In this document: positions 47,714 through 53,928 of the stretch, one piece after another
How positions within the stretch are numbered: the first letter of the stretch is position 1
Layout: each line of letters starts with the position of its first letter
Assembly (NCBI GenBank): GCA_012960245.1
Contig: DUBO01000060.1
Span: 62,001 to 126,000, forward strand
Length of the DNA: 64,000 nt
Reading direction: 5' to 3'
DNA from: Candidatus Binatota bacterium
Lineage (GTDB): Bacteria; Desulfobacterota; Binatia; UBA1149
Notes under the pieces: model-generated
What the model saw: the letters and a program-made list of their open reading frames with translations, nothing else
The model's database searches: none
Told to the model about the DNA's origin: nothing
Translations under genes and position numbers: made by a program

Positions 47714-50365
47714 ATGGACGAACAAGTACGCCCCGATATAGAGGAGGACAACACCGTCGCTGAAGACAAAAGCGGTCCGGTACACCCCTCGGCGATGCGC
47801 GGCGTGTTCAATTCGGTCGCCGACTTTGTGGCCGGCCGGGTGTTCGGCGGAGTGGTTATCCACGAAAGTTCGGTTCGCAAGATAAGAGATCTCGCCAAGC
47901 GTGGCACGGTGGTTTACGTTCTTCGCCATCGGTCTCTGATTGATTACTTCCTGGTCAACTACGTCCTGCGTCGAGAAGGGTTGCCCCTGCCGGTTTTTGC
48001 CAACGGGGTTACTACCACCGTACTCGCTCCTTTTACCGTGATCTTCCGTAGGCTCCGCGACACGCTCGGCCGCGTGCTTAACCTGCGGAGTGAGCAGCCC
48101 GAGGGACTTGGCCACGACTACTGCGCGGCGGCGGTCAAGGAGAACAAACCGGTTCTCATTTTCATGCGCGGCAGACGCGCGCGCGTGTCTTTCAGCTGGG
48201 GCAGGCGCGGGCCTACGGGTTCCCGGGTAGGCACTGACTACCTGCGTGAAGTCGTCCACGGGATGAACTCAACCGAGCGTTTCGTGGTCCCGCTCGCCTT
48301 GTTCCGGGGGCACAGCTTCCGCAAGCGTGAGACTGGTTTATCCGCTGTGATCTATAGCGTTGAAGACGCGCCCAGTGATACCCGCAAACTTTTTGCCTAC
48401 TGGTGGAACCGCAACGACCTGTTCATCACGGTGGGCATGGAAGTAACGATGAGCGAGTTCAGCCAGCGTTACAGCGAAGACTCCGAAGAACGCCTGGCTC
48501 GTCGACTCTCGCGCGCCGTTCAAATTTTCCTCCAACGCGAGGAGCGCGTCGTGCTCGGCCCGGCGCTGCAATCGCGTAGGCGGATTAAAGCCACCGTTCT
48601 CGAGAACGAAGAAATGGCGGCCGGTATACGGAGAATAGCTGATGAAACCCACGCGCCCGTGGGTAAGTTGCGCAAGCAGGCCGAAGTCTATTTTGAAGAG
48701 ATGGCCGCCAACTTCAATGGCATCGTATTCGGCGTTATTGCCTACCTCTTCCAGAAACTATGGCGACGAATGTTCTCAGGCCTCGAGACGATCAACTTCG
48801 AGCAGGTTGTCGACAAGGTAAGACACCACCCCGTGGTCCTCGTTCCCTGCCACCGCAGCCACTTTGACTACCTTGTTATTACCTACCTTTTTCATCTCAA
48901 CTTTGTCAGCCCACCGCATATTTTTGCAGGTGCCAACATGGCGTTCTGGCCCATGGGCCCGTTGTTTCGGGCGGCGGGTGCTTACTTTGTCAGGCGCAGT
49001 TTCCGCGAGGACGAACTCTACAAGCTGGTCTTTCAGCAATACCTTTCTTACCTGATCAAGGAAGGCTACACCCAGGAGTTCTTCATCGAAGGTGGGCGCA
49101 GCCGTACTGGTAAAATCATGACGCCCAAGCTGGGCATGTTGTCGGCGATAGTCAGCTCCTTCGTCGGCGGGGTGCGAAGTGACCTGTTCCTGGTTCCCGT
49201 CTCGATACATTACGGCCGGGTGGTTGAAGAGGCCGCTTATCAGCACGAACTACTCGGCGGTGAGAAGGAAACCGAGAGTATCGGCGCGTTGTTGAAAGCC
49301 CGGCGTTTTCTCAAGCAAAAATACGGGACCGTGTACGCCTCCTTCGGTGAACCCATTTCTCTGGCCGACGCGTTGGGTGACAACAGGGGCCGTTTCAGTG
49401 AGGGCGCGGGGGTGCCCGAAGTAGAGGAGGAGCTCCGTCGCTTTGTTCAAAAGCTTGGCTTCCGCATCCTCCGCGAAGTTAACGACGTGTCGGTGGCCGG
49501 CGCGACGTCTGTTTCCTGTACCGTGCTGCTCGGCGCGACCCACGCGGGCATGCGCTATGAGGACTTCAGGCAGCAGGCCAACGCCCTGGCGAGGCTAATC
49601 CGCCAACAGGACATACCGTTTACCTCCTCGCTCGAACGCAACCTCGGTGATTTTCGCGAAAGCGTTTCCTTCCTGGAAAGCAACGAACTGCTCGAGCGGA
49701 TGGGGGTGATCGACAAGGGGCACGCGGAGGCACTGGTGGTCAAGCAGGGCCGGCGCGTAGCGATGGATTTTTATAAGAACAACCTCATTCACGCATTCCT
49801 CGTCCCGTCGCTCGTAACCTCGATTCTCGCGAACGGATGCAGGGAAGAAGAACTCGCAGACAAGGTGTGGTGGTGGCTCGAGCTGTTTCGTTTTGAGTTT
49901 GCCTTGCCGGAGCGAGGGGAGATTCCCCGCGTGGTGGGTGACCTGATGGCTTACTACCGAGAGGAAGGGGCTGTTGTCGACACCAGCTTGCAGGCCAGCC
50001 ACCCCCTGTCCCTGGCCACGCGAAACGTTCTGGAGTGCTTCAAGGAAAGCTACCGCCACGTGGCCATGGCGCTCAGGGATGACCTGGGCGAGGAAGGGGT
50101 GCAGGAAAAAATCCTCCTCGAGCAGATGCGAACCAGCTATCGCACCGGTATGCTGGTAGGCGATACCCAGCGAGTGGAGGGTGGCTCCGCGGTCACTTTT
50201 GCAAACGCCTTGAGGCGCTACGAAGAGATGGGGTTTGTGCGCCGCGAGCACCGGGGTCGAGGGGGACGCGAAATATGGATAGAGCGAGGCGACAACTACG
50301 GCGCGGTGCAGGAATTGGTTGGTAAACTCGGGCGATCCCTCGAAAAAACACGGGTGGCCGCATGA
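47714..50365 (+). CDS. plsB: Glycerol-3-phosphate 1-O-acyltransferase
   Basis: An 883-residue protein, longer than E. coli PlsB (807). The catalytic acyltransferase module (about 365-590) has VPCHRSHFDYLVITY with the HX4D dyad and FIEGGRSRTGK for phosphate binding. The N-terminal module (about 70-300) has its own HRSLID (also HX4D) and a related fold. In E. coli the equivalent module lacks the motif. The C-terminal 280 residues are helical. PlsB transfers an acyl chain to position 1 of glycerol-3-phosphate, the first step of phospholipid synthesis, at the inner membrane. Confidence 0.92.
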   Translation: MDEQVRPDIEEDNTVAEDKSGPVHPSAMRGVFNSVADFVAGRVFGGVVIHESSVRKIRDLAKRGTVVYVLRHRSLIDYFLVNYVLRREGLPLPVFANGVTTTVLAPFTVIFRRLRDTLGRVLNLRSEQPEGLGHDYCAAAVKENKPVLIFMRGRRARVSFSWGRRGPTGSRVGTDYLREVVHGMNSTERFVVPLALFRGHSFRKRETGLSAVIYSVEDAPSDTRKLFAYWWNRNDLFITVGMEVTMSEFSQRYSEDSEERLARRLSRAVQIFLQREERVVLGPALQSRRRIKATVLENEEMAAGIRRIADETHAPVGKLRKQAEVYFEEMAANFNGIVFGVIAYLFQKLWRRMFSGLETINFEQVVDKVRHHPVVLVPCHRSHFDYLVITYLFHLNFVSPPHIFAGANMAFWPMGPLFRAAGAYFVRRSFREDELYKLVFQQYLSYLIKEGYTQEFFIEGGRSRTGKIMTPKLGMLSAIVSSFVGGVRSDLFLVPVSIHYGRVVEEAAYQHELLGGEKETESIGALLKARRFLKQKYGTVYASFGEPISLADALGDNRGRFSEGAGVPEVEEELRRFVQKLGFRILREVNDVSVAGATSVSCTVLLGATHAGMRYEDFRQQANALARLIRQQDIPFTSSLERNLGDFRESVSFLESNELLERMGVIDKGHAEALVVKQGRRVAMDFYKNNLIHAFLVPSLVTSILANGCREEELADKVWWWLELFRFEFALPERGEIPRVVGDLMAYYREEGAVVDTSLQASHPLSLATRNVLECFKESYRHVAMALRDDLGEEGVQEKILLEQMRTSYRTGMLVGDTQRVEGGSAVTFANALRRYEEMGFVRREHRGRGGREIWIERGDNYGAVQELVGKLGRSLEKTRVAA

Positions 50366-50381
50366 AAAGCAGGAGTCTGAT

Positions 50382-50834
50382 TTGAACAGTCTTGAAGACA
50401 GCGACCTCAGGGAACAGCTCAAGAGCGCTATGAAAGCTGGCGAACCGCTGCGACTGCAGGTAATACGCAGCTTGTTGACGGGGCTGAAAAACCGCTCGAT
50501 CGAGAAGAAGGGCGAGCCGCTTGACGACAAGGACCGGCTTGCCGTGGCCAGGCGAGAGGCCAAGCAGGCGGCCGAATCGCTGGAGTTCGCCGAGAGATCA
50601 GGCCGGGAAGACACCATAGCCAAGGCCAGGAACTTGCTGTCAATGTGCAACGAGTTCCTGCCTTCGCAGATGAACGAGGCCGAGCTCACCGAGGCTGTGC
50701 GCGGGATACTTTCGGAAGGAGACGCATCCTCGCTAGGAGACGTAATGAAAGCACTCGGTGCTCGCTATGCCGGTCGCTACGACGGCAAGGCGGCCAGCGT
50801 GATTGCGCGCGACCTGCTTGAACAGGCGCATTGA
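50382..50834 (+). CDS. yqeY: GatB/YqeY domain protein
   Basis: A 150-residue protein. LREQLKSAMKAGEPLRLQVIR and VRRE-type AVARREAKQAAESLEFAERSG are the YqeY N-terminal blocks. FLPSQMNEAELTEAV and GDVMKALGARYAGRYDGK are the GatB/Yqey C-terminal fold, which resembles the tRNA-binding tail of GatB. TTG 50382 has AGGAG (50371-50375) at ideal spacing, so the longer upstream frame is rejected. Function is not settled in the family. It overlaps the greA-like gene by 4 bases. Confidence 0.9.
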   Translation: MNSLEDSDLREQLKSAMKAGEPLRLQVIRSLLTGLKNRSIEKKGEPLDDKDRLAVARREAKQAAESLEFAERSGREDTIAKARNLLSMCNEFLPSQMNEAELTEAVRGILSEGDASSLGDVMKALGARYAGRYDGKAASVIARDLLEQAH

Positions 50835-51349
50835 CAGCTGGTTTTTCTGTTGGTATTGGACGCGACGTGGCTGACGAACTTCCCATTATCAAGGTGATCA
50901 AGGCCGAGCTCGTGGAGCTCGAGCATGAACTCGCAGTGGATCTTCCACGGCAGATCGAAACCGCGCGCGCCCACGGCGATCTCAGTGAAAATGCCGAGTA
51001 CCACGCAGCCAAGGAGCGGCAAGGCCTCGTTCACGCGCGGGTCGGCATGCTTACGGGCCGTCTCAGCGAGCTCTCCCGTTACGACCTTTCTTCGGTTCCC
51101 TCTGATAAAGTAGGCTACGGCAGCCGGGTGACAGTGGCCGAGGTCGACAGTGGTGACGAGCGGGTCTACGAGCTGGTTTTTCCCGAGGAAACCGCCCCTG
51201 AAAAAGGCCGTATATCGCTGCAGTCTCCGGTAGGCCAGGCCTTGTTGCACAAGCAAGTCGGCGACGAGGCCGTCGTGCGGTCGCCGTCGGGTAAGCGCAC
51301 CTACGAAATTCTCGAGTTAGTCACCGTTCACGACCGCAAAGCGGGTTGA
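50831..51349 (+). CDS. greA: GreA-family transcription elongation factor
   Basis: About 160-172 residues. The N-terminal coiled coil ends in the tip motif HGDLSENAEYHAAKERQG, with the two acidic residues that reach the RNA polymerase active site. The C-terminal FKBP-like domain contains ISLQSPVGQALLHKQVGDEAVV. It restarts backtracked polymerase by stimulating transcript cleavage. TTG 50831 overlaps the yqeY stop; GTG 50867 (MADELPIIK) is also possible. Neither start has a strong ribosome site. GreA and GreB are hard to separate by eye. Confidence 0.9.
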   Translation: MTAGFSVGIGRDVADELPIIKVIKAELVELEHELAVDLPRQIETARAHGDLSENAEYHAAKERQGLVHARVGMLTGRLSELSRYDLSSVPSDKVGYGSRVTVAEVDSGDERVYELVFPEETAPEKGRISLQSPVGQALLHKQVGDEAVVRSPSGKRTYEILELVTVHDRKAG

Positions 51350-51448
51350 ATCGACCTCTTTGCCGCTGACGCCCGTCGCAGGCGCAAGCAGCGGGACTAA
51401 ACCGCCCAAAATGCCATTAAAACGAGCTTGACCTGGGATTGGCGTTTC

Positions 51449-51477
51449 TTGCGCGGTCGGGGTTGTCGTGTTACACC
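51449..51477 (+). promoter_or_regulatory. Weak candidate promoter in the rimP leader
   Basis: TTGCGC (51449-51454) and TACACC (51472-51477) are 17 bases apart. Transcription would begin near 51484, just ahead of the leader terminator. The -10 match is poor, so this is tentative. Confidence 0.25.
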
Positions 51478-51510
51478 ATGTGGGCTGGGCAGGGGTTGGA
51501 TACGTGGTGG

Positions 51511-51537
51511 GGTAGGCTCCAGGGCCTGCCTTTTTTT
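51511..51537 (+). terminator. Intrinsic terminator in the leader of the rimP-nusA operon
   Basis: GGTAGGC-TCCAGG-GCCTGCC forms a 7-bp stem with one T-G wobble and a 6-base loop (51511-51530). Seven T (51531-51537) follow directly. It lies 162 bases after the greA-like stop and 85 bases before rimP. It may end the upstream operon or act as an attenuator: GGCAGG at 51488-51493 can pair with CCTGCC at 51525-51530, the 3' arm of the stem. Confidence 0.8.
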
Positions 51538-51622
51538 GTGCGCCGCAAAAGTGGGCGCGCAGGCAGAAGGCCGCGGGATGGCTTGCCGGGCTGGGTGAAA
51601 GCCTGGCTCGCGGAAAGAAAAG

Positions 51623-52129
51623 TTGGAAAGATCAACAGATACTACGAGAGATAAGCTTTGTTCCCTTGCAGGCCCATTGGCGTCTGAAAGGGGGCTCGAG
51701 GTTCTCGATGTTGATTTCAGCGGCGAAGCCGGAAGCAGGACCGTGCGCGTTTACCTGGACTCGGTGGAAGAAAATGCTGGGGTTGCGATCGAAGATTGTG
51801 CGGCAGTAAGCCGGGCACTTTCCGACCTGCTCGACGTCAACGACGACGTTGTCCGGGGGCAGTTCATGCTCGAGGTTTCTTCGCCCGGTCTCAATCGACC
51901 GCTGCGGCTGCCTTCGCATTTTCGGCGGGTTGTCGGCGAGCGAGTAAGAATCACCCTGACGGTGCAGGTCGACGGCAGGCGGCGGATCAAGGGCTCACTC
52001 GAGCGAGCGGACGATACGGTGGTGGTTGTCGTAGATGACGACGGTTCGCGCCGGGAGATTTCATACAAGGACATCACCCGGGCCAACTTGGAATACCGAT
52101 TTGATGAAGCCGGAGCTGCAGATGCCTGA
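51623..52129 (+). CDS. rimP: Ribosome maturation factor RimP
   Basis: A 168-residue protein with N-terminal SERGLEVLDVDFSGEAGSR (RimP N-domain), VAIEDCAAVSRALSDLLD and the conserved FMLEVSSPGLNRPLRLPSHF, followed by an Sm-like C-terminal domain. It is required for 30S subunit maturation. TTG 51623 follows GGAAAGAAAAG. It is the first gene of the rimP-nusA-ylxR-infB operon, 85 bp after the leader terminator. Confidence 0.94.
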   Translation: MERSTDTTRDKLCSLAGPLASERGLEVLDVDFSGEAGSRTVRVYLDSVEENAGVAIEDCAAVSRALSDLLDVNDDVVRGQFMLEVSSPGLNRPLRLPSHFRRVVGERVRITLTVQVDGRRRIKGSLERADDTVVVVVDDDGSRREISYKDITRANLEYRFDEAGAADA

Positions 52130-52171
52130 GTATGCAGAGCGGCTCATGCGCGTTCCCGAGGGGAGAACAAA

Positions 52172-53629
52172 ATGGAATTCGACATAAAGCACGCGATAGA
52201 CCAGATCAGCAAAGAAAAAGGCATCGACCGCGCCCTCATTATCGAGGCTGTCGAAGAGGCGATGAAATCGGCTGCTCACAAGACCTACGGCGCCGAGCTC
52301 AACATTGACGCCACTTACAACCCGGAGAGCGGCTCGGTCGATATGTACCGAGTGCACACAGTAGTTGAAGAAGTGGCGGATCCCGACAACGAAATTTCGC
52401 TGGGGTACGCGCGGTCGGACATTGACCAGGAAGCGGAAATCGGCGACGAGCTGATGGAAGAGATCGATTCGGCGCCTCTGGGCAGGATCGCTGCCCAGGC
52501 GGCTAAGCAGAATATCGTTCAGAAAGTCAGGGATTACGAGCGTTCGATCATATACGGAGAGTTCAAGGAGCAGGAAGGCTCCGTGATCTCGGGGGTCGTG
52601 CTGCGGTTTGAAAGACGCAACCTCGTCGTCCAACTCCGTCCAAACGTGGAAGCGATACTGCCCGAGAGAGAGCAGATTCCGAGGGAGCGTTACCGTCAGC
52701 AGGAGCGGGTTCGCGCCGTCATCAAGGAAGTCAACGACACGCTGCGCGGCACGCAGATCGTTCTCTCGCGTACCGCACCGGAGCTCGTTGCTAAGCTGTT
52801 TGAACAGGAAGTCCCGGAAGTCTACGAAGGCATCGTCGAGATCAAGGACGTGGTTCGTGAGCCAGGTGGACGCGCCAAGATCTCGGTGATTTCTAAAGAC
52901 AGCGACGTAGACCCCGTTGGTGCCTGCGTGGGCATGCGAGGCAATCGCGTGCAGGCGGTGGTCCAGGAGCTGCGGGGAGAACGAATAGACATCGTCCCAT
53001 GGACACCTGACGAAACGGAGTTTGTCTGCCGTGCTCTTTCGCCGGCCAAGGTCTCACGCATTGTCATCGATGAAGAAGCACACGCCATGGAAGTGGTCGT
53101 TCCCGACGCGGAACTTGCCCTGGCCATCGGTCGCAAGGGGCAGAATATCCGCCTCGCCGCGCGCCTGTCGGGCTGGAAGCTGGATGTCCTCGGTGACGCG
53201 GACTACGAGCGACGCTTGAGGGAATCTAGGCTTTCTTTGCAAGGTGTGGACGGACTCGGCGAATTACAGGCGGAAATCCTGTTGGGCGACGGCTACAAGT
53301 CGGCCGCGGAGTTGGCCACCAGCTCTGCAGCGGACGTTGCCGTTGCGCTCAGTATAGAGGAAGAAGCCGCCGCGGGTTTTCTCGCCAGCGCGACGATTGC
53401 AGCCGAAGAACAACGCAGGACCAGCATGGTAAGGCGCGTGGCGGCCGCGATCAGCGACGCGGTGGAAGCCGTTAACGATGCAGAGAAGGCCCGGCTCGTC
53501 GAAGAAGAGCGCGCTGCCAGCGAAGAGTCGGCCGAGGGCGAATCTGCCGGTAGCGAAGCCGCCGGTAGCGAAGCCGCCGCGAAAGAGAAAACGAGCAATG
53601 ACGAGCCTGACAAGGGAGCAGCCTCCTAG
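52172..53629 (+). CDS. nusA: Transcription termination/antitermination protein NusA
   Basis: A 485-residue protein. Layout: an N-terminal polymerase-binding domain; S1 (about 133-200, GSVISGVVLRFERRNLVV); KH1 (GACVGMRGNRVQAVVQEL); KH2 (LAIGRKGQNIRLAARLSGW); a single helix-hairpin-helix-like segment (LQGVDGLGELQAEILLGDG); and a Glu/Ala/Ser-rich acidic tail of about 60 residues containing a duplicated 15-bp stretch. It modulates pausing, termination and antitermination. GGGGAG is 9 bases before ATG 52172. Confidence 0.95.
   Translation: MEFDIKHAIDQISKEKGIDRALIIEAVEEAMKSAAHKTYGAELNIDATYNPESGSVDMYRVHTVVEEVADPDNEISLGYARSDIDQEAEIGDELMEEIDSAPLGRIAAQAAKQNIVQKVRDYERSIIYGEFKEQEGSVISGVVLRFERRNLVVQLRPNVEAILPEREQIPRERYRQQERVRAVIKEVNDTLRGTQIVLSRTAPELVAKLFEQEVPEVYEGIVEIKDVVREPGGRAKISVISKDSDVDPVGACVGMRGNRVQAVVQELRGERIDIVPWTPDETEFVCRALSPAKVSRIVIDEEAHAMEVVVPDAELALAIGRKGQNIRLAARLSGWKLDVLGDADYERRLRESRLSLQGVDGLGELQAEILLGDGYKSAAELATSSAADVAVALSIEEEAAAGFLASATIAAEEQRRTSMVRRVAAAISDAVEAVNDAEKARLVEEERAASEESAEGESAGSEAAGSEAAAKEKTSNDEPDKGAAS
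53546..53575 (+). repeat. Two-unit 15-bp repeat in the nusA tail
   Basis: GCCGGTAGCGAAGCC occurs twice in direct succession and encodes Ala-Gly-Ser-Glu-Ala twice in the acidic C-terminal tail. It is in frame and likely a recent duplication. Confidence 0.9.
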
Positions 53630-53928
53630 TGAGCAGGCTGAGTCATACACCGCAGCGTACCTGCGTAGGTTGCGGCCAGCGCGATGCCCCGGGGCAGATG
53701 CTGCGCTTTGGACAAGACGGCGCAGGCGGGCTGGCAATAGTGGTGGAACCGATCAGCGGTCGAACTGCGTACCTGCACCGCACGCTCGAGTGCCGGGCAG
53801 GGCTGGTCAAGCGTCGCACGGTGAATCGATCGTTGCGCACTGGTATTGCCGCGGATCAGAAATCCCGTTTCGTACGGGATCTTGAGGCGATGCCGGAAAG
53901 CGGCGCGCAAGGGGAGGAGCTTAGCTGA
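53629..53928 (+). CDS. ylxR: YlxR family RNA-binding protein (DUF448)
   Basis: A 99-residue basic protein. RTCVGCGQRDAPGQMLRF is the DUF448 signature with its CxxC, and the GRTAYLH...C stretch follows. It starts at GTG 53629, sharing a base with the nusA stop, and ends by overlapping infB by one base. This nusA-ylxR-infB position is standard. The domain binds RNA; a role with RNase P or transcription has been suggested in other bacteria. Confidence 0.92.
   Translation: MSRLSHTPQRTCVGCGQRDAPGQMLRFGQDGAGGLAIVVEPISGRTAYLHRTLECRAGLVKRRTVNRSLRTGIAADQKSRFVRDLEAMPESGAQGEELS

Follow-up and report, generated by a model that had tools for sequence, protein, structure and literature searches.

A probable rimP-leader attenuator ahead of rimP-nusA-infB in an uncultured bacterial class

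Introduction

Transcription factors that act on termination may be produced under the control of the process they influence, and the operon that encodes NusA is a case in point. In the window considered here, a stretch of 64,000 nucleotides from a Candidatus Binatota genome of 2.8 Mb, a short hairpin followed by a run of T stands between greA and rimP, the first gene of a rimP-nusA-infB operon. Does this hairpin merely end the transcript of the genes before it, or does it govern entry into the genes behind it, and if so, is the choice made by the RNA itself? The first-pass annotation of the locus had proposed attenuation through two mutually exclusive RNA pairings and had named a simple end of the yqeY-greA transcript as the alternative.

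NusA of Bacillus subtilis reportedly regulates its own synthesis by attenuation, a result credited to Mondal et al. in 2016.

A 2025 review describes this autoregulation as termination that NusA stimulates in the leader of the nusA operon (PMC12288461). The rimP-leader attenuator was defined as a terminator located 4-130 nt before rimP, with a highly conserved core of the form GGGc(...)gCCC (Naville & Gautheret 2010, PMC2965389); the same source gives several Gammaproteobacteria an extra tandem terminator with a potential antiterminator, and puts the B. subtilis leader at ~180 nt. In Streptococcus agalactiae, transcription of rimP-nusA-infB is described to terminate 31 nt after a start mapped by RNA-seq, short and long transcripts share this one start, and the authors suggest feedback by NusA (PMC4448216). 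The leader of metY-nusA-infB in Escherichia coli contains the terminators t1 and t2, and the operon's transcripts become more abundant when less NusA-dependent termination takes place (PMC6511841). In a literature search on Binatota, rimP and attenuator, Binatota were absent among the matches listed, which is not proof of absence.

The rimP locus and its terminator

The genes on the + strand are, in order, a PlsB-like acyltransferase (its NCBIfam score lies below the cut-off), yqeY and greA (both identified via Pfam), rimP, nusA, ylxR and a frame of 958 aa. greA ends at 51349 and points in the same direction as rimP (51623..52129), the operon's first gene, whose frame starts with TTG at 51623 and contains the Pfam domains RimP_N and RimP C-terminal SH3, while the NCBIfam RimP models stay below their cut-offs. 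nusA (52172..53629) matches TIGR01953 above the cut-off and harbours NusA_N, KH_5, KH_2 and S1 domains; ylxR follows at 53629. The 958-aa frame at 53928 we take to be infB, going by its position and sequence rather than by an HMM.

The hairpin GGTAGGC-TCCAGG-GCCTGCC (51511..51530) has a stem of seven pairs, one of them G-U, formed by GGTAGGC (51511-51517) and GCCTGCC (51524-51530). It is followed by T7 (51531..51537), the predicted release point, 85 bases before the TTG of rimP. These coordinates agree exactly with the first-pass annotation, and the structure is above chance: its score, T-run included, is reached by 6 of 2000 dinucleotide shuffles of 51350-51622, and it ranks first among the terminator-like sites in 50300-53700. 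Two more hairpins are predicted between the terminator and rimP (51537-51612), the first of which is, by eye, not clearly kept in the congeners.

Conservation across the class

A search for RimP gave matches in 56 of 58 relatives, in 13/13 genomes of the order and in 108 of the 109 genomes of the class at >=90% completeness, the window's genome being counted each time. The upstream DNA was compared in 115 genomes, which comprise every RimP match except the one in G076, cut by a contig end; G048, G057 and G089 gave no RimP match and were left out. G048 contains, at L034 1501-1529, a 29-base match (93%) to window positions 51570-51598.

The core hairpin pattern precedes rimP in 113 of these 115 genomes, the window's own included. 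The two misses are G017, with only 137 nt upstream of rimP on its contig, and G051, where the hairpin is masked by N. At one fixed score, hairpin and T-run together are recovered in 111/115 genomes compared with 36/575 shuffles. The usual form in the class is GTGGGC-loop-GCCCRC followed by T5-T9, and the strict version GTGGGC-loop-GCCCRC-T5 is present in 76 of 109 genomes, as a single copy in 75 and as two copies in one. In G088, the sole genome with two copies of the hairpin pattern, these are identical (C25:9417 and C80:635). In 110 of the 113 hairpins, each of the six inner pairs is a standard one. A similar pattern is found 5' of nusA in 30 of the 73 loci with enough upstream DNA (out of 80), where shuffles lead one to expect 0.8; at least three of the 30 belong to the same class. 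A comparison of the window and of 19 loci from relatives with Rfam release 15 yielded nothing relevant.

Within this uniform picture, the window's genus carries one variant. Its core reads AGGC/GCCT where the class has GGGC/GCCC at the same place, and it thus departs from the letters of the published GGGc(...)gCCC, while position and pairing are retained. The pair concerned (pair -1) is G-C in 109 genomes, A-U in the window and two congeners, and G-U in one (n = 113). Since both sides changed, the core pair is kept in the genus, and by parsimony the substitution would count as one event affecting both sides.

A predicted promoter next to the terminator

Upstream of the hairpin, a putative promoter consists of a -35 element TTGCGC (51449..51454), invariant in the three congeners, and an extended -10 element TGT+TACACC, TGTTACACC (51469..51477), of which TGTTAC is invariant in the three congeners. 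Both elements belong to a signature found across the class: TTG, a spacer of 16-18 nt (nearly always 17-18) and a -10 element beginning with TA precede the hairpin in 112/113 genomes, the window's included. The signature mostly reads TTGC (TTGCG in summary form) plus TGnTA and stops 8 to 37 nt short of the core. A promoter score of at least 5 is attained in 110 of 113 genomes, versus 33 of 1130 shuffles. The one genome with a hairpin and no promoter call, G085, has little upstream sequence in the stretch used. A generic promoter scan of 50300-53700 returned no site, because the hexamers are weak.

Transcription was assumed to start 7 nt downstream of the -10 element, at about 51484. The predicted start implies a leader RNA of ~54 nt up to the end of the T-run, whose 5' part (51484..51510, placed by promoter spacing) holds the GGCAGG discussed below. 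In 36 of 112 genomes, chiefly of families f12 and f14, fewer than 10 nt separate the core from the predicted start.

The region between promoter and stem is itself strikingly constant in the genus. Among the three congeners, two of the 30 columns of 51479-51508 vary, compared with 74/211 in the rest of the intergenic region (P 0.001); for the block 51479-51540 the figures are 3 of 62 versus the same 74/211 around it (Fisher P 4e-7). Judged by these columns, the near-invariance of the 30 nt 5' of the stem exceeds what a bare terminator would need.

The gene that the hairpin serves

No second strong terminator-like site separates greA from rimP, and with greA ending at 51349 in the same direction, the hairpin might do no more than end a plsB-yqeY-greA transcript, rimP then being expressed from a promoter of its own further downstream. 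Against this reading, the hairpin is kept in genomes where greA was undetected upstream (82 of 115, some with less than 600 nt to search; tblastn over at most 600 nt detected greA in the other 33). It is also kept where the neighbour is divergent: at L025 (242-1411, -) and L049 (2163-3269, +), a divergent PAS histidine kinase identified via Pfam adjoins rimP, and a kinase-like divergent frame is present in most of the listed genomes of families f5 and f14, the Pfam check covering L025 and L049. At L005, the upstream neighbour is an AMP-binding acyl-CoA synthetase in the same direction. The upstream gene varies while the hairpin stays, so the hairpin goes with rimP and does more than close the greA transcript. 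The promoter signature in front of the hairpin in 112/113 genomes and a conservation of sequence beyond pairing alone speak against the same reading, which we consider improbable; the alternative offered by the first-pass annotation is accordingly disfavoured.

A conserved inverted repeat near a promoter could also be a repressor-bound DNA operator, or it could stabilise the mRNA as a 5' hairpin. The repeat is indeed close to the promoter, and in one large family the predicted start falls at or near the base of the stem. An operator, however, is hard to reconcile with an arm-to-arm spacing that varies from 3 to 8 nt and with the second pair outward, which is T-A in 62 genomes, T-G in 47 of the 113, C-G in 3 and C-A in 1; the T-G form is fine in RNA and not in a DNA palindrome. 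The T-G form and the loop of 3 to 8 nt thus argue for RNA rather than a DNA operator. Against both operator and stabiliser stands the run of at least five T on one side of the repeat in 108/113 genomes. We regard a role as operator or stabiliser as very unlikely, even more so than a mere end of the greA transcript, and retain the reading of the hairpin as a terminator in the leader of rimP.

No clear switch between competing pairings

The most specific claim of the first-pass annotation concerned GGCAGG (51488..51493), which, as stated there, is the exact complement of CCTGCC (51525-51530) in the 3' arm of the terminator. The two pairings would exclude each other: GGCAGG, joined by UUGGA/UCCAG and UAC/GUA, would form an antiterminator with the 3' arm, and a signal would choose between the structures. 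Some of the evidence fits such a switch. For the window's predicted leader (51484-51537), the alternative fold is the computed minimum-energy fold at -18.8 kcal/mol, 2.6 kcal/mol better than the terminator fold at -16.2, and GGCAGG, CCTGCC and nearly the whole block are invariant in the three congeners. The near-invariance of the 30 nt 5' of the stem counts on the same side. Elsewhere in the order, 5-nt complements occur in G007 and G011, and the alternative fold of G011 beats its terminator by 1.8 kcal/mol.

Shuffling, however, places the match near the level of chance. An exact complement to the 3' arm of six or more bases arises in 9% of shuffles of 51480-51508, in 6% for 51449-51508 and in 14% for 51350-51508, and once G-U pairs count, ~60% of shuffles contain a duplex as good as the best one (7). 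The alternative fold is equalled by shuffled 5' segments in 18% of trials for the window and in 30% and 40% for the congeners. Duplex formation with the 3' arm has P 0.08-0.11 in the genus, and the medians for the 14 families with enough upstream sequence range from 0.08 to 0.67, most of them near 0.5. In a swap test between families, own against foreign, the value for the 3' arm was 0.42, 0.5 meaning no signal.

Comparison between genomes is no more favourable to the switch. As nearly all of 51479-51540 is invariant, no covariation can be read in the genus; a T to C change at 51497 disrupts the alternative fold's inner helix in each of the two congeners, for which the two folds come out level (-0.2, +0.3). 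With an eight-base 3' arm, exact complements in the order's other ten genomes reach at most 3-4 nt in eight of them and 5 nt in the remaining two, compared with 6 in the genus, and the 6-mer has no counterpart there. All other families favour the terminator, with medians of ~3 to 11 kcal/mol; the exceptions are G011 (-1.8) and the near-level G005, G010 and G110. Finally, a competing strand has no room in the 36 of 112 genomes where fewer than 10 nt lie between core and predicted start.

On the basis of shuffles, duplex energies, the swap between families, whole-leader folds and exact complements in the order, the competing pairing is rejected as a general mechanism, and a switch at this locus is unlikely. 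A 6-base complement in a GC-rich leader, striking as it looks, is not by itself evidence of an RNA switch. Contacts between the 5' segment and the 5' arm plus loop were considered too: family medians lean slightly below 0.5 (0.10-0.72) and the swap test gave 0.46, which is insufficient for a claim.

Model and relation to known attenuators

With the hairpin, its conservation with rimP, the promoter signature shared across the class and the paired substitution all observed, the reading we favour is a rimP-leader attenuator, in which intrinsic termination close to the promoter would be tuned by NusA as a feedback; we assign it a probability of about 0.72. Of the attenuation originally proposed for the rimP-nusA-infB leader, the attenuator-type terminator is supported class-wide and stands behind a predicted promoter, while the pairing switch is not supported. 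An RNA antiterminator is neither needed nor supported.

In this model, for which we infer the start site, termination in the cell and the feedback by NusA, RNA polymerase would start at the predicted promoter (51449-51477), synthesise a leader of ~54 nt and meet the intrinsic terminator at 51511-51537, where a fraction of the polymerases would stop. The remaining ones would read into rimP, nusA and infB, and any read-through transcript from greA would meet the same terminator. The stopping fraction would most likely depend on a protein that acts on the hairpin and the paused polymerase, NusA being the best candidate: more NusA would cause more termination and hence less NusA. By analogy with the systems described above, such feedback is likely in this leader.

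The locus shares with the rimP-leader its operon and place, as the hairpin lies 5' of rimP-nusA-infB at a distance of 85 nt, as well as a G-rich 5' arm, a C-rich 3' arm and a T-run. It also lacks a convincing antiterminator, in keeping with the common form of the rimP-leader, where none is visible; the competing pairing is not clearly above chance. In contrast to the rimP-leader, the window's genus has AGGC/GCCT rather than GGGC/GCCC, the strict core being the rule in the class, and the tight arrangement of promoter and hairpin across the class counts as a further difference. As in the B. subtilis nusA leader, a terminator is situated in the leader of the operon itself; stimulation by NusA is reported there and would hold here by analogy, and the leader of ~180 nt compares with a predicted ~54 nt to the end of the T-run. 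The S. agalactiae operon resembles the locus in having a terminator very close to the start, albeit in a different phylum and with a start that was mapped rather than predicted. E. coli likewise has terminators before rimP, yet its leader, unlike that of the window, includes metY, several promoters and RNase III sites.

On this reading, the element is an ordinary rimP-leader attenuator that is new only for the group, and the window's genus has one paired variant of it. The 113 examples carry a known and very widespread attenuator into an uncultured class, across which promoter and terminator are kept together, compactly. A bolder version, which we hold as tentative and on balance doubtful, takes promoter and terminator as one compact unit, the core, in roughly one genome out of three, lying within ~10 nt of the RNA 5' end, so that the leader would have no RNA sensor and polymerase-bound NusA alone would decide on read-through; the window's genus would add a second, nearly isoenergetic fold. 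The natural variants, in the form of pair changes and of different distances from stem to start, represent a ready set for testing how NusA controls its own level.

Further features of the leaders

Two other candidates were discarded. A leader peptide of 58 aa (51478-51654) is contradicted by G002, which has AGG in place of ATG and a frameshift due to a one-base gap, and its ATG precedes the predicted start; the frame runs across the terminator into the start of rimP and is, by eye, open in G001. An RNA G-quadruplex in the G-rich 5' segment is missing from the best fold of the window, and 513 of 1000 shuffles are as stable. Quadruplexes of two or three layers are predicted in single genomes (G004, G010, G054 and G021).

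Several families show motifs of their own ahead of the stem. In f3 and f4 (e.g., L006, L007 and L008), most genomes of the order have a GGGGC[AG]-like motif ~12-20 nt before it. Leaders of f5 (e.g., L018 and L025) contain a conserved CACUU...AAGUG hairpin upstream that would overlap the base of the terminator stem and is possibly a competing fold on the 5' arm. Many genomes of f6, f8, f10, f11, f13, f15 and f16 carry GGCC or GGCCG before the stem, possibly as a pairing partner or a protein site; in three f16 genomes the motif is GAACC, and the loop side reads GGTTC.
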